From the NCBI RefSeq assembly GCF_000147715.2, contig NC_017934.1, positions 682,001 through 746,000 of the forward strand: 64,000 nucleotides of DNA. Reading direction: 5' to 3'. Positions 4,918 through 13,345 of the stretch are shown here, piece after piece. The DNA comes from Mesotoga prima MesG1.Ag.4.2. GTDB taxonomy: Bacteria > Thermotogota > Thermotogae > Petrotogales > Kosmotogaceae. The position numbers and the translations under genes were made by a program. The notes beneath the pieces are model-generated. The model was not told the DNA's origin. It saw nothing but the letters and a program-made list of their open reading frames with translations, and did not search any database. How positions within the stretch are numbered: position 1 is the first letter of the stretch; each line of letters opens with the position of its first letter.

Positions 4918-5715
4918 ATGAAACCCAAAAAGAGCTTTGACTTTGATGAGTTTGCCTTAGTATATTCCAAATAAAGATATCCCAACGAGAAGTTGGTGGA
5001 GCACATTATTAATAGAATTAGATATGCCGACAGAATTCTGGAAGTAGGTTGTGGCACAGCTGACTATTTGAGTATTCTCTCAGAGCTTCTCTATGCTCAT
5101 GGTTTCGGATTCGACACCAGCCCTTCAATGATTTCAGAGGCTTCAAAGAAGAATCAGAGAATTGAACTTGAACTCGCTACTGCAGATAAAAACGGTCCTT
5201 TTCCATATGGAAATTCTGAATTTGACTTCGTCTTCAATATTAACCTCGTACATTATATTTCTGATCTTGAAAATCTGTTCAAGGAGAGTTTTCGAGTCCT
5301 GCAAAATGATGGGAGCATATTGACAGTGACGGACTCCTGTAAGGACATTTCTGAGAGAACCTTAACCAATTATTTCCCTGAGACTCTTGATATAGATAGG
5401 GGTAGATATCCTGGAAATTCTTCAATTATTTCTGCGATGAAGAAGGCAGGCTTCGAGGGAATATATACGACGAAGATGAAGACCCCTTTTGAATTCAAGA
5501 AACAGCACTTTGAGCAGTACAGAAACAAGGCCTACTCGTCCCTGAGATTGATACCCGAAGAGAGGTTTGAAGAGGGAATTAAAAGGCCAGAGTCCGATAT
5601 GGAAAGGGGTCTTGTCCTCGGGAAGAAGGCGTATACTCAGATATGGGACATTAAAATAGCGAAGAGGGATTTTGATCTCCCGATGATCTACACTACAAGT
5701 TTCACTGAAAAGTAA
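4918..5715 (+). pseudogene. SAM-dependent methyltransferase interrupted by an in-frame TAA at codon 19
   Basis: An ATG at 4918 has a strong AGAGGAG site 7 bases upstream and opens MKPKKSFDFDEFALVYSK. TAA then occurs at 4972-4974, and the same frame continues RYPNEKLVEHIINRI and a full class I methyltransferase: motif I ILEVGCGTADYLSIL, FGFDTSPSMI, FDFVFNINLVHYI and VLQNDGSILTVTD. The segment before and after the stop fits the usual N-terminus of this family (FDEFA..YSK-x-R.YP), so the stop appears to replace one sense codon, probably TAT or TAC for Tyr. Alternatively a TTG at 4993 could start a 240-residue protein, but the sequence before it (AACGAGAAG) is a poor ribosome-binding site. The lesion may be a real nonsense mutation or a sequencing error. 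Confidence 0.8.
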
Positions 5716-5741
5716 AACTGGTTCCTTTAGGAGGTGTCTCA

Positions 5742-6239
5742 GTGAGAAAATTGGTAGTGATCTCTATAATCACCATTCTTTCAGTGTATGGCTTTTCTAT
5801 GGCAGTCAGTGCCGGAATAGGGTTCAATTTGGACATGAGTTCGGGTGCCTTGGTTACACCGGTATTCATTCAGTTTTCGGCAGGTATCCCTTATCTTCAG
5901 GGGACGATCCATGCGTATGTTTTTTCTTTCGACTGGTCCAGCCTTGTTGTCAAGGGCTTCAGTTTGCCTGATCACACATATCTTGGAATCCAGACCAAAG
6001 TCACAGTCCACAAAAGTATTTATGTGAAGGGACAGATCTTCTGGTCTTTAAAACACATCACTTCTCTCATTGGAGGAGAGAGAACAATCGCCGGCACACC
6101 TCTTTACACAAGAATCGGTCTCGGAAGCAATTTTTCAAGCATCGAATTGGATGCGGGTTTTGATGGGTACTGGCAACTAGAGCCGTCTAGTACGGTTCCA
6201 TTTGCGCGACCTTATCTTCTCGTTAACTTCACTTTCTAA
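5742..6239 (+). CDS. Small secreted, beta-rich protein (possible outer-envelope protein)
   Basis: 165 residues starting at GTG 5742 behind AGGAGGTG. Residues 1-24 form a signal peptide: basic MRK, hydrophobic core LVVISIITILSVYGFSMA, and cleavage expected near AVSAG. The mature part alternates hydrophobic and polar residues, with aromatic residues at strand ends, and finishes with a terminal phenylalanine (LLVNFTF). This is the pattern of a small outer-membrane beta-barrel. No family is recognised. It sits 26 bases after the methyltransferase and 2 bases before threonine synthase, so all three may be co-transcribed. Confidence 0.65.
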   Translation: MRKLVVISIITILSVYGFSMAVSAGIGFNLDMSSGALVTPVFIQFSAGIPYLQGTIHAYVFSFDWSSLVVKGFSLPDHTYLGIQTKVTVHKSIYVKGQIFWSLKHITSLIGGERTIAGTPLYTRIGLGSNFSSIELDAGFDGYWQLEPSSTVPFARPYLLVNFTF

Positions 6240-6241
6240 AA

Positions 6242-7363
6242 GTGACTTCCTTCATCTGTTCTAAATGCGGGCGGAAATTTCCTTTAGGATCAAAAGCCTT
6301 CAAATGCTCATGCGGAGGTCTTTTTGACCTGAAATTCGAGCCTCATTTCCCAATTGCCAATATTGAACAGCGACCGCACAATATGTGGCGTTATCGCGAA
6401 GCACTGCCGATCGAAAGTGATCGGTCCATCGTAACTATGTCTGAAGGTTATACTCCATTGATTGAAGAGGAAATATGTGGGAAGAATGTGTTTATTAAAA
6501 TGGATCACCTTCTTCCGACTGGTTCTTACAAGGACAGGGGCGCTAGTCTTCTAGTAAGCTATGCGAGAGAACACCAAGTTTCATCTTTAGTCGAGGATTC
6601 TTCGGGAAATGCAGGATGCTCTATTGCAGCATATTCTGCACGAGCAGGTATTTCCTGTGAAATATTCGTTCCCGACCATACTTCGGTTGGGAAGCTCAGA
6701 CAGATAGAGGCTTATGGTTCGAAAGTCCGATTGGTTGAAGGCTCGAGAGAAGATGTATCAAGAAAGATTCTCGAGCAAACGAAAGAAAACTTTTATGCAA
6801 GTCATGTCTATAATCCACTCTTTTTGCATGGAACGAAGACTCTTGCGTTCGAGATCTGTGAACAGCTTGGCTGGAAGAGTCCTGGAGCTATTGTTGTTCC
6901 AGTAGGAAATGGGACTCTTTTGTTGGGAGCATCTATTGGATTTGGGGAATTGTATTCAGCCGGAATTGTTGATCATCTTCCAAAGATTATTGCCGTGCAA
7001 GCAGAGAACTGTGCCCCGCTTCTTCGTGCTTTCGAAATGAATCAAAAAGATTCCGCTGATGTAAACGCGGAAGCGACTGTTTCAGAAGGGATTGCGATTG
7101 AAAAGCCCGTAAGAGGTGCCCAAATATTGAAAGCGGTCAGAGACAGTGGAGGCACTTTTGTGGGGGTTTCTGAGCAGGAGATAATTGAAACCTGGAAGGA
7201 AATGTCAAAGAGAGGTCACTTCGTTGAACCAACTTCCGCGGCAACAATAGCGGGTTTAAAGAAGTACATTTCGAAAACCGATCCTAACGAAACGATTGCA
7301 TCCGTATTCACGGGCCACGGCCTTAAAACAGCCTGCGAATTATTCTCCTGGAATAAGCAATAG
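6242..7363 (+). CDS. thrC: Threonine synthase
   Basis: Converts O-phosphohomoserine to threonine using pyridoxal phosphate. The 373-residue protein begins with a small zinc-ribbon-like segment (C6, C9, C22, C24) found in many bacterial and archaeal threonine synthases. The PLP lysine is in PTGSYKDRGAS (K97), with SSGNAGCSIAAYSA for substrate and PLP contacts and a glycine loop VVPVGNGTLLLG. The GTG start is 2 bases after the preceding stop and has no clear ribosome-binding site, so translation is probably coupled. Some family members act as threonine dehydratases or cysteate synthases, but the overall pattern favours ThrC. Confidence 0.85.
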   Translation: MTSFICSKCGRKFPLGSKAFKCSCGGLFDLKFEPHFPIANIEQRPHNMWRYREALPIESDRSIVTMSEGYTPLIEEEICGKNVFIKMDHLLPTGSYKDRGASLLVSYAREHQVSSLVEDSSGNAGCSIAAYSARAGISCEIFVPDHTSVGKLRQIEAYGSKVRLVEGSREDVSRKILEQTKENFYASHVYNPLFLHGTKTLAFEICEQLGWKSPGAIVVPVGNGTLLLGASIGFGELYSAGIVDHLPKIIAVQAENCAPLLRAFEMNQKDSADVNAEATVSEGIAIEKPVRGAQILKAVRDSGGTFVGVSEQEIIETWKEMSKRGHFVEPTSAATIAGLKKYISKTDPNETIASVFTGHGLKTACELFSWNKQ

Positions 7364-7390
7364 GGTTTGAACTGAGGTAGTTGAAGCAAG

Positions 7391-7480
7391 AATTCGTGGG
7401 TCAATTTTTGATCCAGTTTCTTTCAGTGAGCCCGGTGGGTGTGGAACTGAGAAAATCACTTCGAGATTCTCCTGGTCGAA
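7391..7480 (-). pseudogene. Possible remnant of an ACT-domain (PheA-like) coding sequence
   Basis: Within the 245-bp gap after thrC, the minus strand is open and reads FDQENLEVIFSVPHPPGSLK followed by ETGSKIDPRI. The segment VIFSVPHPPGSLKE resembles the first strand and PG-turn of ACT domains, especially prephenate dehydratase, where a later motif TKIESRP is common (compare SKIDPRI here). The intervening half of the domain is missing. The match is by eye and may be chance. Confidence 0.2.
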
Positions 7481-7558
7481 ATGTTTATAAGTTTTGAGAA
7501 GTTGCCGCATTGATTCGGACCTAATGAAGCCGGGAGGACGCCCCGTCTTAGTGTTGCG

Positions 7559-7587
7559 TTGACTGTTGAACACAACGGTTATATAAT
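7559..7587 (+). promoter_or_regulatory. Sigma-70-type promoter for the YugP-rlmN-rpe operon
   Basis: TTGACT at 7559-7564, a 17-base spacer, and TATAAT at 7582-7587. Transcription would start near 7594, leaving a leader of about 15 bases that begins essentially at the AGGAGG site. Confidence 0.75.
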
Positions 7588-7608
7588 TAAAATTAGGAGG
7601 TGGTTAAG

Positions 7609-8286
7609 TTGTTTTGGGATCCAACTTTTATTATTCTCATTCCTGCTATAATCCTGGCAGCTTACGCCCAGTTTCTTGTTAGTTCGAGATTTGCGCATTA
7701 TTCCAAAGTGAAATCGACCTTTGGACTTAATGGAACTCAGCTTGCGAGGCAGCTTCTTGACAATGCAGGACTTTATGATATTAAAATTGAACGAATAAGG
7801 GGAAATCTAACAGATCATTACGATCCGAAGAATAGAATCGTTCGGCTTTCAGATACAACGCACAACAGCTCCTCTATAGCAGCTCTAGGTGTAGTGGCTC
7901 ACGAAATCGGTCATGCTATTCAAGATAAGGAGAAATATGTACCTTTGATTGTTCGCAACGCCGTAGTCCCTGTTGCGCAGATCGGTTCTTCTCTTTCGTG
8001 GATAATCTTTATTATTGGACTTCTTATGGTTTCGCCTGTCCTTATCAGAATAGGGATTCTGGTCTTTTCTGCCTTTGTCTTCTTCACGCTAGTGACGCTG
8101 CCGGTCGAGTTCAACGCAAGTTCGAGAGCGAAAAAGCTTCTTTCGTCAATGGGCATGCCTTCTAAAGAGCTTGAGGGCGTAAGTTCAGTTCTTGGAGCTG
8201 CAGCAATGACTTACGTTGCATCTGCGGCTACCGCCATTCTTCAGTTATTCAGGATGCTTTTCTTGTCGGGTGCTGGCAGAGACTGA
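7609..8286 (+). CDS. YugP-family neutral zinc metallopeptidase (membrane)
   Basis: 225 residues. The HExxH zinc motif lies in VVAHEIGHAIQD (H98, E99, H102). There is an N-terminal membrane segment (residues 4-21) and two or three further hydrophobic segments, the arrangement of the YugP/PF04298 metallopeptidases, whose substrates are not established. A GTG at 7600 is also in frame, but it sits on top of AGGAGGTGG. The TTG at 7609 has the correct spacing and gives MFWDPTF. First gene behind a strong promoter; its stop overlaps the next gene's ATG. Confidence 0.85.
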   Translation: MFWDPTFIILIPAIILAAYAQFLVSSRFAHYSKVKSTFGLNGTQLARQLLDNAGLYDIKIERIRGNLTDHYDPKNRIVRLSDTTHNSSSIAALGVVAHEIGHAIQDKEKYVPLIVRNAVVPVAQIGSSLSWIIFIIGLLMVSPVLIRIGILVFSAFVFFTLVTLPVEFNASSRAKKLLSSMGMPSKELEGVSSVLGAAAMTYVASAATAILQLFRMLFLSGAGRD

Positions 8287-9290
8287 TGCAGGGAGCTCGT
8301 TCCATTGCTTTACAGACCCTATCTTTTTTCGATGCAAATGGTTATATCTCCTTTAGAAAATTGGATATAGCACTGTCCACGCTTTCTTCCCAAGATCGCT
8401 CGTTTTGCATGAATATCATCTACGGATGTCTGAGAAAGAGAGTTAGCATCGACTTCGAACTGTCCCGTTTTCTCACAAAACCAAGCAAATTGCCCCATGC
8501 TGTGCTGAATGCGTTGCGAATCGGCGCATTTCAGATTCTTTATATGAAAAGTATCCCGGAATACGCGGCACTGAAGTCTTCGGTAGATATGATTGGGGTG
8601 AAAGAGTTTAAGGGTCTTGTGAATGCGGTACTCAGGAAGCTAATAAATGAAGGCCCTGCGGAAAGAAAACCTCTTAACATCCTCTATTCCCATCCGGAAT
8701 GGCTTGTAAATTACTGGAGGGAATTTGCCTGGATAGACGACTTTGAAGAGCTTCTGGAGTACAATCAGACTCCTCCTGTTCAAACAGTTATTTCCTTCGG
8801 AAGAGAGAATGAGTTGATCAAAAACGGCTTTCTATTCGACAAGAGTGAGTATTCGGATCTATCTTGTGTTTTTCAAAAAGGTAGTAGTATAGAGAATCTT
8901 CAGATCATCGACGAAATTGAATATTTGCTTTCAAAAACAGCTATCCCGGTTTTGACTCATAAGGGAAGTCTTACAGGGAAAATCAACTCAATACCATGGC
9001 TTCTCCACACGTTGACTCCGGAGAAAATTGACGGCTACTCAAAAGTGGCTGTGGAATTGCTCGGCAACTTCTCGAGAGAGCATAATGAGTTCATATATTA
9101 TAGTCAGGCTTTTACTGTAGAGGAAAACAAGCATGCCCTCGACGTTCTCGAAGGTTTTGAACCGGTAATGATGGAGGACTTCTTCGCTGAGCATAAGATC
9201 TCTGCGAGATTTGATGGCAAAGGATACTGGCTACAACCATGGAAGGCACCGGCCACATGTTATCTGGCAAGAGTTAGGAGTGCAAATTGA
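8286..9290 (+). CDS. RsmB-related protein lacking the SAM-binding and catalytic motifs
   Basis: 334 residues, against about 430-450 for RsmB (16S rRNA m5C967 methyltransferase). Residues 1 to about 125 form the NusB-like RNA-binding domain (ALQTLSFFDANG...FCMNIIYGCLRKR...RIGAFQILYMKSIPEYAALKSSVDM). The linker LYSHPEWLVNYW is also typical. The expected SAM motif (DxxAAPGGKT) and catalytic DxPCSG motif cannot be found. Instead the sequence leads to YYSQAFTVEENKHALDVL, the counterpart of the family's YSTCS..PEENE motif but without its cysteine. The frame is intact and it sits in the same operon as rlmN and rsgA, so it is probably expressed as a non-catalytic RNA-binding protein. Confidence 0.75.
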   Translation: MQGARSIALQTLSFFDANGYISFRKLDIALSTLSSQDRSFCMNIIYGCLRKRVSIDFELSRFLTKPSKLPHAVLNALRIGAFQILYMKSIPEYAALKSSVDMIGVKEFKGLVNAVLRKLINEGPAERKPLNILYSHPEWLVNYWREFAWIDDFEELLEYNQTPPVQTVISFGRENELIKNGFLFDKSEYSDLSCVFQKGSSIENLQIIDEIEYLLSKTAIPVLTHKGSLTGKINSIPWLLHTLTPEKIDGYSKVAVELLGNFSREHNEFIYYSQAFTVEENKHALDVLEGFEPVMMEDFFAEHKISARFDGKGYWLQPWKAPATCYLARVRSAN

Positions 9291-10306
9291 AGGACATTCT
9301 TTCTTTAGATCTGGACGAGCTGAGAAGGGAAATAATTTCATTCGGAGAAAAGGACTACAGGGCAAATCAGATTTTCAAGTGGGTTTATGCGAAGAGGGTC
9401 CTTGACTTTTCTGAGATGACCGATCTTCCTATGAATCTTAGAAACAAGCTCGGTTCGCTTTTTCGATTTACCACGATGAAGGAAGTAGAAAGGCAGATTT
9501 CGATTGACGGTACAGAGAAATTCTTGCTTAAGTTGGAAGACGATAACCACATTGAGACGGTTGTTTTGAAACATCCCCGCCACGTCACCTTTTGCATCTC
9601 TTCTCAGGTTGGATGCGCTCTCAACTGCTCCTTCTGTGCAACTGGAGCCAGTGGCTTCACAAGAGACCTTTCTGCGAGTGAGATAGTTTCTCAGGTAATT
9701 CTTATGGAGAATAGCATCGGCAGACCAGTCGATAATATTGTATTTATGGGAATGGGAGAACCTTTTCTTAACGAGGCCAACGTCTACAAGGCAATAAAGA
9801 TTCTTCATGATCCCGTAGGTAGAAACCTGGGGATTCGTCACTTCACTATTTCAACTGCTGGGATTCCCGAAGGCATAAAGAGACTGGCCGATTCGGGAAT
9901 GGACGTCCGCCTTTCAGTTTCACTTCATAGCGCAAGTGAAGAGACACGGAGTTCTTTGATGCCAATCAACAAGAAGTATCCACTCGATTCATTGCGGAAG
10001 GTGCTTGATTATTACCAGCAAAAAACCGGTAATAGAATTACATTTGAATACGCTTTGATAAAAGGAGTGAATGATTCTAAGGAAGATTTGACAAAACTCG
10101 GGGAATTCCTGACGGGGATAAAATCCTTCGTGAACATAATACCCGTGAACCCAGTGAAGCCGGTTTTCGATAGACCATCCGATAGGGAAATTGCTGTCTT
10201 CTCAGAGAGTCTCAAAAAGGCCGGATTCGAATGCGCAGTCCGACACGAGAAAGGCACTGATATTGAGGCTGCATGTGGTCAGTTAAGGCAGAAAAGAAGG
10301 GAATAG
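9287..10306 (+). CDS. rlmN: Dual-specificity 23S rRNA/tRNA adenine-C2 methyltransferase
   Basis: Radical-SAM enzyme that methylates A2503 of 23S rRNA and A37 of some tRNAs. The 339-residue protein has the CxxxCxxC iron-sulfur motif in GCALNCSFCATGASGFTR (C110, C114, C117), the MGMGEPFLN segment, and the C-terminal EAACGQL with the cysteine that carries the methyl group. The TTG start overlaps the stop of the RsmB-like gene by 4 bases and has AGGAG about 9 bases upstream. Confidence 0.95.
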   Translation: MKDILSLDLDELRREIISFGEKDYRANQIFKWVYAKRVLDFSEMTDLPMNLRNKLGSLFRFTTMKEVERQISIDGTEKFLLKLEDDNHIETVVLKHPRHVTFCISSQVGCALNCSFCATGASGFTRDLSASEIVSQVILMENSIGRPVDNIVFMGMGEPFLNEANVYKAIKILHDPVGRNLGIRHFTISTAGIPEGIKRLADSGMDVRLSVSLHSASEETRSSLMPINKKYPLDSLRKVLDYYQQKTGNRITFEYALIKGVNDSKEDLTKLGEFLTGIKSFVNIIPVNPVKPVFDRPSDREIAVFSESLKKAGFECAVRHEKGTDIEAACGQLRQKRRE

Positions 10307-10308
10307 TT

Positions 10309-11211
10309 TTGGAGAGAAGAAAAGGAGTGGTAGTGAGATTTGGCAGCAGAAATATGGAGGTTGTTGATGCTGAAACAGGCGGGCGGCTAATATGTACTAT
10401 GCCAGGACGTTTTAGATTGCAGGGAATCAGACCTATCGTTGGAGATAGAGTTGAATATGCTTTAAGCGGTGACGGTCAGGGGCGCATAGAAAGCATTCTT
10501 CCCAGAAAGACGGAGCTTCTGCGTCCACGGATCTCGAATATCGAGCAAATATTGCTTGTGCTTTCGTTGAAGGAACCGGCAGTTCAAAATCTCATTACGG
10601 ATCGTTTCCTTGTTCTTGCCGAGTACGCGAAACTGCCTGTTACGATAGTAGTCAACAAAATCGATCTAATCAATAATGAAGAACTAGATAGGTTTTCAGA
10701 TGTCTATGGTGAGCACTACGAAATCTGTCCGGTCTCTTCTAAGAACAGAATCAACCTCGATCGTCTTCGAGAAGTTTTGAAAGGTAAGATAAGCGTTATG
10801 GCCGGCATGTCGGGAGTGGGTAAGAGCAGCCTCCTAAATTCTCTTAACCCTGGACTTAAGCTAAGGGTTTCAGAGATTTCAAGGGGTTTGGAGAGGGGTA
10901 GACATACGACCTCTTATGTCGAACTCCTGCAATTCGAGTTTGGAGGATTAATAGCAGACACTCCGGGTTTTGCAAATCTTGAACTGCCAGTGATTGCTCC
11001 GGAAAACCTGGACAAGTGTTTCCCAGAAATCTCCCAGGAACAAGGAATGTGCGCGTTTAGTGACTGCGTCCATGTCGATGAGCCCGGATGCTACGTCAAG
11101 GAGCTTGTAGAAGCTGGTTCTATTCATAGAAGTCGTTACGAAAGCTATTTGATTATGTATAATGAATTGAAGGAAAGAGAACAGGAGAAGGGAGGGCGAA
11201 AATATGGCTAG
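10309..11211 (+). CDS. rsgA: Small-ribosomal-subunit GTPase RsgA
   Basis: Circularly permuted GTPase that helps mature the 30S subunit. An OB-fold comes first (about residues 1-65). G motifs then appear in permuted order: NKID (G4), GMSGVGKSSLLN (G1), TTS (G2) and DTPGF (G3). A C-terminal zinc module carries CAFSDCVHVDEPGC. An ATG at 10273 would overlap rlmN by 34 bases. The TTG at 10309, 8 bases after AAGGGA, gives MERRKGVVVRFG and is the likelier start. The next gene overlaps it by 8 bases. Confidence 0.93.
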   Translation: MERRKGVVVRFGSRNMEVVDAETGGRLICTMPGRFRLQGIRPIVGDRVEYALSGDGQGRIESILPRKTELLRPRISNIEQILLVLSLKEPAVQNLITDRFLVLAEYAKLPVTIVVNKIDLINNEELDRFSDVYGEHYEICPVSSKNRINLDRLREVLKGKISVMAGMSGVGKSSLLNSLNPGLKLRVSEISRGLERGRHTTSYVELLQFEFGGLIADTPGFANLELPVIAPENLDKCFPEISQEQGMCAFSDCVHVDEPGCYVKELVEAGSIHRSRYESYLIMYNELKEREQEKGGRKYG

Positions 11212-11851
11212 AATCTCTCCCTCGATTCTTGCCGCAGACCTTACTGAACTCGCCCGTGAAGTCATAAGAGTCCGTGACGCTGATTACTTGCACATAGATG
11301 TGATGGATGGAATGTTTGTTCCCAATATAACTTTTGGGGTGCCGATCATGGAAGCGCTGGGAAGACTGCATCATCCTCCCCTTGATGTTCACTTGATGAT
11401 AGAGGATCCTTCCAGATACGTGAAGGAGTATGCCGCCTTAGGCGCAAAGAATCTACACGTACATGTTGAAGGTAACTATCATCTTCACAGACTTCTTGGA
11501 CAAATTAGAGAAACCGGTTCGAGAGCATTTGTCGTTCTCAATCCATCTACGCCCGTCTCCCTTCTAGATGAGGTTCTTTCATGTGCCGATGGTGTACTTG
11601 TTATGACCGTAAATCCTGGGTACACCGGCCAAGAATTTATACCAGAAGCTGCCAAAAAGATCGATGTGCTAGATCGTATTCGAACTGAAAGGGACTTGAA
11701 GTTCGAAATCGCAGTGGATGGAGGAGTGAGCCTCGACAATGCTCAGGATCTTGTAAATAGAGGTGCAGATATTCTTATAATGGGAGCTGCAGTCTTCAGA
11801 TCGGAAAATCCATCAGTTGTTGTAAGGAAGATCAAGGAGCTCAAGAGGTGA
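11204..11851 (+). CDS. rpe: Ribulose-phosphate 3-epimerase
   Basis: Interconverts ribulose-5-phosphate and xylulose-5-phosphate in the pentose phosphate pathway. 215 residues, normal length. Diagnostic segments: SPSILAAD near the N-terminus, HIDVMDGMFVPNITFG (metal-binding His and Asp), DVHLMIEDP, MTVNPGYTGQEF and VDGGVSLDNA (second catalytic Asp). Overlaps rsgA by 8 bases and rdgB by 4. Confidence 0.95.
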   Translation: MARISPSILAADLTELAREVIRVRDADYLHIDVMDGMFVPNITFGVPIMEALGRLHHPPLDVHLMIEDPSRYVKEYAALGAKNLHVHVEGNYHLHRLLGQIRETGSRAFVVLNPSTPVSLLDEVLSCADGVLVMTVNPGYTGQEFIPEAAKKIDVLDRIRTERDLKFEIAVDGGVSLDNAQDLVNRGADILIMGAAVFRSENPSVVVRKIKELKR

Positions 11852-12435
11852 AGCTCTACTTAGTGACTTCTAATGAAAACAAACTCAAAGAGGTACGCCT
11901 CATTCTTCCTGAAGGATTTGATGTTGAATCCATTGAAGCAATCGCTCCAATGAAAGACATCGTTGAAGATGCAGGGACCTTCTTCGGAAATTCATTGAAG
12001 AAGATCGAAGCTTACAGGGATGTTGGAGTACCACTTCTTGCGGATGATTCAGGGCTTGTAATTGAATCTCTTGGAGGATTTCCGGGAGTGAATTCTGCGA
12101 GATTCATGCAGAACAGTCATTACTCTGAGAAGATGCAGATCATTCTTGACAGAATGGTGAACGAAGAAAACAGGGCAGCTCGATTTGTCTGTGCTGCGCT
12201 GTTTTATGATCCTTCGAACAGCGTTTTGGTTGGAGTTGAGGAGCAGGTCGAAGGAATTATTGCAAGGAAACAAACCGGTGAAAACGGTTTCGGCTATGAT
12301 CCAATATTTGTTCCCCAAGGTTATTCTCAAACCTTTGGTGTTCTCGGGGATTCAGTAAAAAAGGAACTTTCACATAGAGGTAAGGCATTCAGGAAACTCT
12401 TTTCACTTGTTCACCTTTATACCGGGAAAAAATAA
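11848..12435 (+). CDS. RdgB/HAM1 non-canonical purine NTP pyrophosphatase
   Basis: Hydrolyses dITP, ITP and XTP to monophosphates, keeping deaminated purines out of nucleic acids. 195 residues with TSNENKLKEV at the N-terminus, LADDSGLVIESLGGFPGVNSARF and GENGFGYDPIFVP, all conserved in the family, plus a late SHRGKAF. The GTG start overlaps the rpe stop (GTGA). The last 47 bases overlap the 3' end of the convergent lgt gene. Confidence 0.93.
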   Translation: MKLYLVTSNENKLKEVRLILPEGFDVESIEAIAPMKDIVEDAGTFFGNSLKKIEAYRDVGVPLLADDSGLVIESLGGFPGVNSARFMQNSHYSEKMQIILDRMVNEENRAARFVCAALFYDPSNSVLVGVEEQVEGIIARKQTGENGFGYDPIFVPQGYSQTFGVLGDSVKKELSHRGKAFRKLFSLVHLYTGKK

Positions 12436-13276
12436 ACAAAGCTATTCCCACTACGAGTAGGATTACAGAAACTGCTTGAGCAGTTCTTACTTCGCTTTGA
12501 CCTATGTAAAGGCTATCTAACCTCAGGCCTTCAACGAAAAACCTAACAATTGAATATAAAACCATGTATAGAGCGGTTACTTCACCATAATTCTTTCTTT
12601 TCCCCAAATACCAGTATAGTACAGCGAAAATGACTACATTCGCCAGGCTTTCGTAGAGAAAGGTTGGATGGAAGTATTCAAATTCGGAATAACCTGGCAT
12701 TCGGTATCTTAAAGGTACGAACATCTTCCATGGAAGATCAGTGGGTGAACCGTATGCCTCATAGTTTGTGAAATTTCCCCATCGACCAATGGCCTGAGCT
12801 AAAGGTAATACAGCTGTGAAAATATCAGTTACCTGTAGAAATTTCAAGTCTGCCTTCTTTCTGAATGTAACATAAAGAAATGTAACAAGGAGAGCGGCGA
12901 AAAAAGCTCCATGTATGGCCAGGCCACCATCCCACGTTCTGAAGATGCTCCAGAAATCTCCGCGATAGATCTCATAGTTGAACGCAACATAATAGATTCT
13001 GGCGCCCAGCACGCCAAAAACAATTCCAATGAAGACTCCCTCGATCAAGTAATCTTCTTTGATGCCTTCCTTTAGACCCTGACGCCGTCCCAAGAGATAA
13101 GCAGCGATGATTCCGGTGGCAATCATAACTCCATACCATCTAACCGAAAAGGGGCCTAGATTCTCAACAATTACTGGATTCAGTATCAGTTCACCACTGA
13201 AGACTGCTCTCAAAAAGAAAAACAGTGCAACTGCTGAGGCTGATGCTATCACAATTGAAATTACTATTCTCTTCAC
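12389..13276 (-). CDS. lgt: Prolipoprotein diacylglyceryl transferase
   Basis: Transfers diacylglycerol from phosphatidylglycerol to the lipobox cysteine of prolipoproteins in the inner membrane. 295 residues, about seven membrane segments. The Lgt signature reads GRWGNFTNYEAYG (usually GRIGNFINGE), with GGLAIHGAFFA containing the essential histidine and an FLYESLANV segment before the C-terminal helices. An extra N-terminal hydrophobic segment (residues 4-26) precedes the usual start of the family. GTG start behind a G-rich run. It follows tig by 69 bases on the same strand. Its partner lspA is at 16.8 kb. Confidence 0.93.
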   Translation of the reverse strand: MKRIVISIVIASASAVALFFFLRAVFSGELILNPVIVENLGPFSVRWYGVMIATGIIAAYLLGRRQGLKEGIKEDYLIEGVFIGIVFGVLGARIYYVAFNYEIYRGDFWSIFRTWDGGLAIHGAFFAALLVTFLYVTFRKKADLKFLQVTDIFTAVLPLAQAIGRWGNFTNYEAYGSPTDLPWKMFVPLRYRMPGYSEFEYFHPTFLYESLANVVIFAVLYWYLGKRKNYGEVTALYMVLYSIVRFFVEGLRLDSLYIGQSEVRTAQAVSVILLVVGIALFIFSRYKGEQVKRVS

Positions 13277-13345
13277 TTAAACCCCCCTCTTTCCGATATT
13301 CAAAACCAGATCTTTGAGTATTCCAGAAGTCTGAGAAAACCTCAT

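Follow-up and report, generated by a model that had tools for sequence, protein, structure and literature searches.

A short RsmB without SAM-binding motifs throughout the Kosmotogaceae: possible conversion of an rRNA methyltransferase to a non-enzymatic 30S assembly factor

Some rRNA methyltransferases aid the assembly of the ribosome independently of the methyl group that they add, and plain deletion of the gene does not tell these roles apart. What, then, is retained of such an enzyme when its chemistry has gone? The question is raised by a gene of Mesotoga prima MesG1.Ag.4.2 that lies in a stretch of 64,000 nucleotides (contig NC_017934.1, positions 682,001 to 746,000), here called the window, and that an initial annotation described as a relative of RsmB lacking the SAM pocket and the catalytic cysteines. 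In the family Kosmotogaceae, evolution has removed the methylation machinery while keeping and constraining the rest, providing a natural test case in cultured bacteria (Kosmotoga and Mesotoga). If the reading favored below is true, a chaperone role of RsmB has been separated from its methylation role by nature itself.

The gene, its recognizable parts, and its neighbors are collected in Table I. The frame is intact, as had been claimed, and the placement of the gene in one operon with rlmN and rsgA is upheld by the scores of both neighbors; rsgA is followed by rpe and then by an rdgB-type gene. The surroundings are much the same at all 17 Kosmotogaceae loci, with rlmN downstream in each and the zinc peptidase upstream in the 15 complete ones, and a zinc peptidase gene also precedes the full-length rsmB at three loci of the group f10. 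The promoter-like site ahead of the gene run is at most suggestive, since shuffling yields nearly as many such sites (mean 8.1) as the 10 that the region actually holds, and a scan of positions 5700-13300 with Rfam gave no family at threshold.

Table I. Positions of the short RsmB-derived gene, its parts, and its neighbors in the window
Feature	Positions	Strand	Basis or remark
Promoter-like site TTGACT-17-TATAAT ahead of gene run	7559..7587	+	11/12 consensus matches
Zinc metallopeptidase gene, upstream	7600..8286	+	PF04298 287.2 bits; stop shares one base with the RsmB-like ATG
Short RsmB-derived gene	8286..9290	+	ATG start; 334 aa plus stop; orthologues in 17/17 family genomes
NusB-like N-terminal domain, RsmB type (residues 4-120)	8295..8645	+	Pfam NusB (PF01029) 71.2 bits, cut-off 23.1; RsmB models outrank NusB models in NCBIfam
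Linker PEWLV..YNQTPP and shortened RsmB/F ferredoxin-like region (residues 136-200)	8691..8885	+	Partial Pfam RsmF-B_ferredox (PF22458), 15.9 bits, below cut-off 27
Approximate junction (residues 200-209); ~80-90 canonical RsmB residues with SAM motifs I and II missing	8883..8912	+	Alignments; breakpoints aligner-dependent
Motif IV relic THKGSLTGK (residues 224-232; canonical DAPC[ST]SLGT), Cys to Gly	8955..8981	+	Alignment
Motif VI relic IYYSQAFTVEEN (canonical VYSTCTISREEN), catalytic Cys to Gln	9093..9128	+	Alignment
C-terminal segment kept, DGKGYWLQPWKAPATCYLARVR	9213..9278	+	Alignments
rlmN, downstream	9287..10306	+	TIGR00048 392.3 bits; TTG start overlaps the RsmB-like stop
rsgA (small-subunit biogenesis GTPase)	10273..11211	+	TIGR00157 242.8 bits; PF03193 177.8 bits

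Profile searches tie the protein to RsmB principally through its N-terminal half. The NCBIfam models for RsmB match residues 2-168 only and fall far below their cut-offs, at 135.6 bits for NF011495 (cut-off 503) and 85.5 bits for TIGR00563 (cut-off 269), and the NusB equivalog TIGR01951 gives just 33.7 bits and does not reach its cut-off of 88.35. The NusB-like domain that had been noted is thus indeed retained, and it is of the RsmB type. Searched against the PDB, a profile of the short family likewise ranks Escherichia coli RsmB (1SQF, E 7.7e-12) above the NusB chains, again through the N-terminal half. The predicted pI of this half is 8.9-9.4 in three of the four proteins checked and 5.8 in the fourth.

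The C-terminal half is far more difficult to place. It is not significant in the comparison of the family profile with E. coli RsmB (-3.6 bits), a PDB search with just this half of the window protein gives no convincing match (best E 1), and a Pfam search of the 334-aa protein gives no match to the catalytic domain Methyltr_RsmB-F (PF01189). Matches to PF22458 occur in eight of the 17 short-form members at E values up to 1, with alignments that disagree over the region. The family profile does, in a separate match, recognize this half in the full-length RsmB of one genome, G023 (positions 218-332, E 7.6e-11), and hhalign joins the short and full-length families over 330 columns (E 4e-47), with the N-terminal half supplying most of the similarity. 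What had been proposed for the tail motif can therefore be widened, as the whole of the C-terminal half is derived from RsmB. By its sequence, the tree of its N-terminal domain, and its gene neighborhood, the 334-aa gene is a true rsmB orthologue.

The loss of the catalytic parts is best seen in an alignment of 15 complete short proteins with 13 full-length ones. Motif I (DMCSAPGGKTTELA in the full-length protein L026) and motif II (ALDID) are gap columns in all 15 short proteins, in agreement with the reported absence of the SAM-binding glycine motif. The motif IV cysteine, present in 13 of 13 full-length proteins, is Gly in 14 short ones and Asn in the remaining one. The initial annotation, which held the PCSG active site to be absent, was right about this catalytic cysteine and wrong about the region, where a relic still aligns with the canonical motif. 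Its statement that the YSTC cysteine has been replaced holds throughout, as none of the 15 short proteins has Cys in the motif VI column (Gln in six, including the window protein, Asp in four, Lys in two, and His, Asn, and Glu in one each). As a separate observation, the full-length RsmB proteins of the group f11 (L095-L097) carry AAGFGTK, AAGYGTK, or AAGFGGK at motif I in place of AAPGGK and are otherwise complete.

Alignment of the C-terminal half with canonical RsmB picks up near motif IV, after a missing stretch of ~80-90 residues whose exact breakpoints vary by aligner. HMMER, whose alignment of the linker and ferredoxin-like region to full-length L026 reaches profile position 203, places a single 81-residue gap against that protein (its residues 211-291). 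MAFFT and hhalign differ from HMMER in the linker and ferredoxin-like region, opening two gaps that remove some of the latter and spare the segment before motif I; hhalign also scatters a few residues over the motif I/II stretch. The aligners concur in finding no clear equivalent of motifs I and II and in resuming the match by about motif IV, and because they place the gaps differently the claim is limited to these two points. An excision of exactly beta strands 1-3 was considered and dropped, since the gap geometry of HMMER differs from that of MAFFT and hhalign. AlphaFold2 on the window protein plus one relative (L082) gave a mean pLDDT of 35 and no usable model.

From these sequences, the loss of catalysis in short RsmB is close to certain. 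That the protein might go on converting C967 of 16S rRNA to m5C through a cryptic SAM site would accord with its unchanged place in the operon, with a C at position 967 in those 16S genes that were located, and with a Cys that two of the 15 short proteins (G010 and G014) carry immediately after the motif IV column. Set against the lack of any motif I/II residues and of any motif VI-column cysteine in all 15 complete sequences, this is hardly credible, and the wider genomes make it less so, as no RsmB/F domain scores above cut-off elsewhere in the 17 Kosmotogaceae genomes (PF01189, 0/17). The sub-cut-off PF01189 matches in these genomes cover only profile positions 2-93 of 199 and look like generic methyltransferases; a complementary catalytic half encoded elsewhere in the genome was rejected on the same grounds.

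The distribution of the short form was followed in a survey of 61 genomes, the window's own included, and with the family profile in 103 genomes of the phylum Thermotogota. The short form is found in 17 of 17 searched Kosmotogaceae genomes, which span five genera, with no stops inside the matches; 15 copies are complete, and the two that are split (G008 and G013) have their broken sides at contig ends. Because all 17 share it, a sequencing error or a single broken copy can be rejected. The complete proteins have 334-340 residues, against about 415-430 in full-length RsmB. PF01189 passes its cut-off in 25 of the 61 genomes, all outside the family: strongly (>130 bits) in 22, as a contig-end fragment of 40.5 bits in G048, and in G021 and G018 only via generic-looking matches of 27-28.5 bits. 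Among the matches listed from the 103 genomes, all the short forms that we saw belong to the Kosmotogaceae. Outside this family, the N-domain matches listed are frames of at least 411 aa, contig-end pieces (among which the frame in G048 is short, at 289 aa), or plain NusB, and 29 genomes gave no match at all. A scan of genome contigs with the single protein reaches close relatives only. Viral contigs yielded no further relatives, and eight of them picked out by a motif scan gave no RsmB match by tblastn. In the N-domain tree the short forms occupy one side of a branch with support 100/99, which is consistent with one origin, with the caution that treekit warned of long branches joining.

Another issue is whether the shortened gene is maintained or is simply slow to disappear. 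Nei-Gojobori estimates were made for ten pairs, three of which are saturated in dS; the other seven give dN/dS values of 0.167, 0.114, 0.140, 0.134, 0.077, 0.184, and 0.126, indicating purifying selection among relatives and not the neutral decay that would have spoken against a repurposed protein. For the six of these seven pairs in which the short gene is complete, the values are 0.051-0.158 in the N-terminal half and 0.148-0.245 in the C-terminal half. Constraint has shifted toward the N-terminal half in short RsmB. For five of the 15 short and five of the 13 full-length sequences, chosen for comparison, the ratio of C-half to N-half identity is 0.39-0.75 in ten short pairs against 0.77-1.69 in ten full-length pairs, so that the ranges nearly meet; the ratio lies below 1 in all short pairs and above 1 in five of the ten full-length pairs. 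Identity to the window copy is 49-89% for RlmN and 33-86% for short RsmB, from which it follows that the short gene evolves faster than its neighbor and is still constrained. In the 17-row alignment, residues Trp-139, Leu-140, Asp-209, Pro-237, Trp-238, Leu-239, Glu-280, and Gly-313 are listed as invariant, with Trp-238 and Leu-239 being family-specific and nearly fixed.

These values bear directly on the view that the gene is a decaying relic, its activity gone, on its way to full loss and held for the present by translational coupling in the operon. Such a relic might be expected from the complete absence of rsmB in other Thermotogota lineages, from the fast divergence of the C-terminal half, and from the start and stop codons that overlap both neighbors in the window. 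The dN/dS ratios, well below 1 in both halves, the presence of the gene in all 17 genomes, from five genera, and the invariant residues nevertheless make it unlikely.

The better conservation of the half with the NusB fold might instead suggest an additional factor like NusB that serves rRNA antitermination via S10 and boxA. The RsmB type of that domain argues otherwise, as do the purifying selection that acts on the C-terminal half likewise and the separate NusB found in 16 of the 17 family genomes (G005, 80% complete, shows the RsmB-like match only), and we regard such a factor as quite improbable. Replacement of NusB by short RsmB was rejected on account of the same separate NusB genes.

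At the target site, 16S genes were found in seven of the 17 Kosmotogaceae genomes, and helix 31 (h31) reads CGA[T/A]GCTAAGCGAAGG in all seven, as it does in three f2 genomes with full RsmB; the positions kept are those that we take to be G966 and C967 in E. coli numbering. An RsmD-type gene (PF03602) occurs in 100 of the 103 genomes, including all 17 of the Kosmotogaceae, where 16 match at E 1.4e-31 or better and one weakly (G016, 9.4e-9). Non-catalytic subunits that serve a methyltransferase partner are known from Trm6-Trm61 and METTL14-METTL3, and short RsmB could be a targeting or activating subunit of this kind for an enzyme in trans, such as RsmD, which acts on the neighboring G966, or RlmN. 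The retention of RsmB parts outside the SAM site while the SAM motifs are absent, the RsmD-type gene kept in the family, and the adjoining rlmN all agree with such a role. RsmD-type genes are nevertheless present in Thermotogota that have no rsmB of any kind, indicating that RsmD does not generally need short RsmB, and a partner subunit is on balance distinctly unlikely.

The reading that we favor, to which we give about an even chance, is that rsmB became a pseudoenzyme that keeps a methylation-independent role, binding early 16S or 30S intermediates near h31. The conversion would have taken place in the ancestor of the Kosmotogaceae. Internal sequence was lost together with the SAM-binding motifs that it contributed to the methyltransferase fold, and the two catalytic cysteines gave way to other residues. 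The remainder comprises the NusB-like domain with its linker and the C-terminal end of the former catalytic domain. Like RsmB, it would bind early 16S rRNA or 30S assembly intermediates in the area of helix 31, and it would aid folding or maturation without methylating C967. We infer from this pattern a single ancestral origin, pre-30S binding, an assembly function, and the absence of m5C967. Excerpts of PMC7056703 report that an rsmB deletion in E. coli accumulates 17S precursor and that RsmB acts on an early 30S intermediate, prior to the joining of S19. As a counterpoint, it may be the loss of the methyl group, and not that of the protein, that causes this phenotype; the fast drift of the C-terminal half (17-42% identity among the five chosen short members) and its lack of a credible match in the PDB also count against an assembly role.

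Of the repurposing originally proposed, the combination of lost catalytic parts with an intact, selected frame stands (17/17 genomes, dN/dS 0.08-0.18 in seven of ten pairs, rlmN at 17/17 loci), and the role in rRNA binding or assembly would fit both this pattern and the E. coli phenotype. The simplest account may be that the Kosmotogaceae gave up the chemistry of RsmB and held on to the part that serves binding and assembly. It appears plausible, at slightly less than an even chance, that loss of the SAM-binding portion of the Rossmann fold, with the rest retained, turned an rRNA methyltransferase throughout this family into a dedicated, non-enzymatic factor of 30S assembly. Short RsmB is a clear case of a family-wide bacterial rRNA methyltransferase pseudoenzyme, and it is not a new kind of system. 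Among the papers listed from the open literature on RsmB or rRNA methyltransferases of Kosmotoga and Mesotoga, on inactive RsmB, and on pseudo-methyltransferases, we recognized none on the short form.

Comparison with known systems helps to delimit the proposal. The short form is an orthologue of RsmB (Sun/Fmu), the 16S m5C967 methyltransferase of PDB entries 1SQF and 1SQG, and has in common with it a NusB-like domain followed by a linker and the C-terminal part; it differs in being shorter, in having neither SAM motif I nor SAM motif II, and in the loss of the cysteines of motifs IV and VI. With the antitermination factor NusB it shares the Pfam domain PF01029, but it stays below the NusB equivalog cut-off and has an extra C-terminal part of 200 residues. 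METTL17-Rsm22 is reportedly a methyltransferase-type assembly factor of the mitoribosomal small subunit; it and METTL15 differ from short RsmB in being other methyltransferases and mitochondrial, and we do not suggest that their assembly roles share an origin with that of short RsmB. NSUN4 differs in being an active enzyme and, to our knowledge, has no NusB-like domain. The likeness of human METTL15 is one of working, as this active m4C enzyme has, according to excerpts of PMC11197891, an assembly role independent of catalysis, making small-subunit assembly separable from methylation. NSUN4 is described, in excerpts of PMC3916286, as a mitochondrial m5C rRNA methyltransferase with a dual role that includes assembly.

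Elsewhere in the phylum, the searched genomes of f2 g7, g8, and g9, of f3, f4, f6, and f8, and of f10 g24 hold nothing for RsmB beyond plain NusB or generic matches. As RsmD-type genes are nearly universal, such groups suggest repeated outright loss of rsmB. Lineages with neither the full nor the short form indicate that the function is dispensable in the phylum, which speaks against the favored reading. In two rsmB-less genomes of f2 g7, G018 and G024 (L036, L037, L052, L057), h31 reads CGATGGTAACCG (CGATGG), with G where relatives have C967, presumably at position 967 of the E. coli numbering; here target base and enzyme are both gone. The C is kept in the other rsmB-less genomes in which h31 was seen. 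RsmB can also be lost in other bacteria, being absent from several groups of Mollicutes according to excerpts of PMC4014445. Two rRNA methyltransferase genes of K. olearia, rmlH and rmlL, are reported as laterally acquired in excerpts of PMC5674127; going by the names given there, they are not C967 enzymes. In the group f5, NusB occurs in long frames: in G057 (L106, 2-2119, minus strand) a stretch of 706 aa joins it in one frame with formate-tetrahydrofolate ligase (NusB 14-137, FTHFS 162-706), and in four other f5 genomes (G052, G055, G059, and G061) NusB lies in frames of 714-725 aa.
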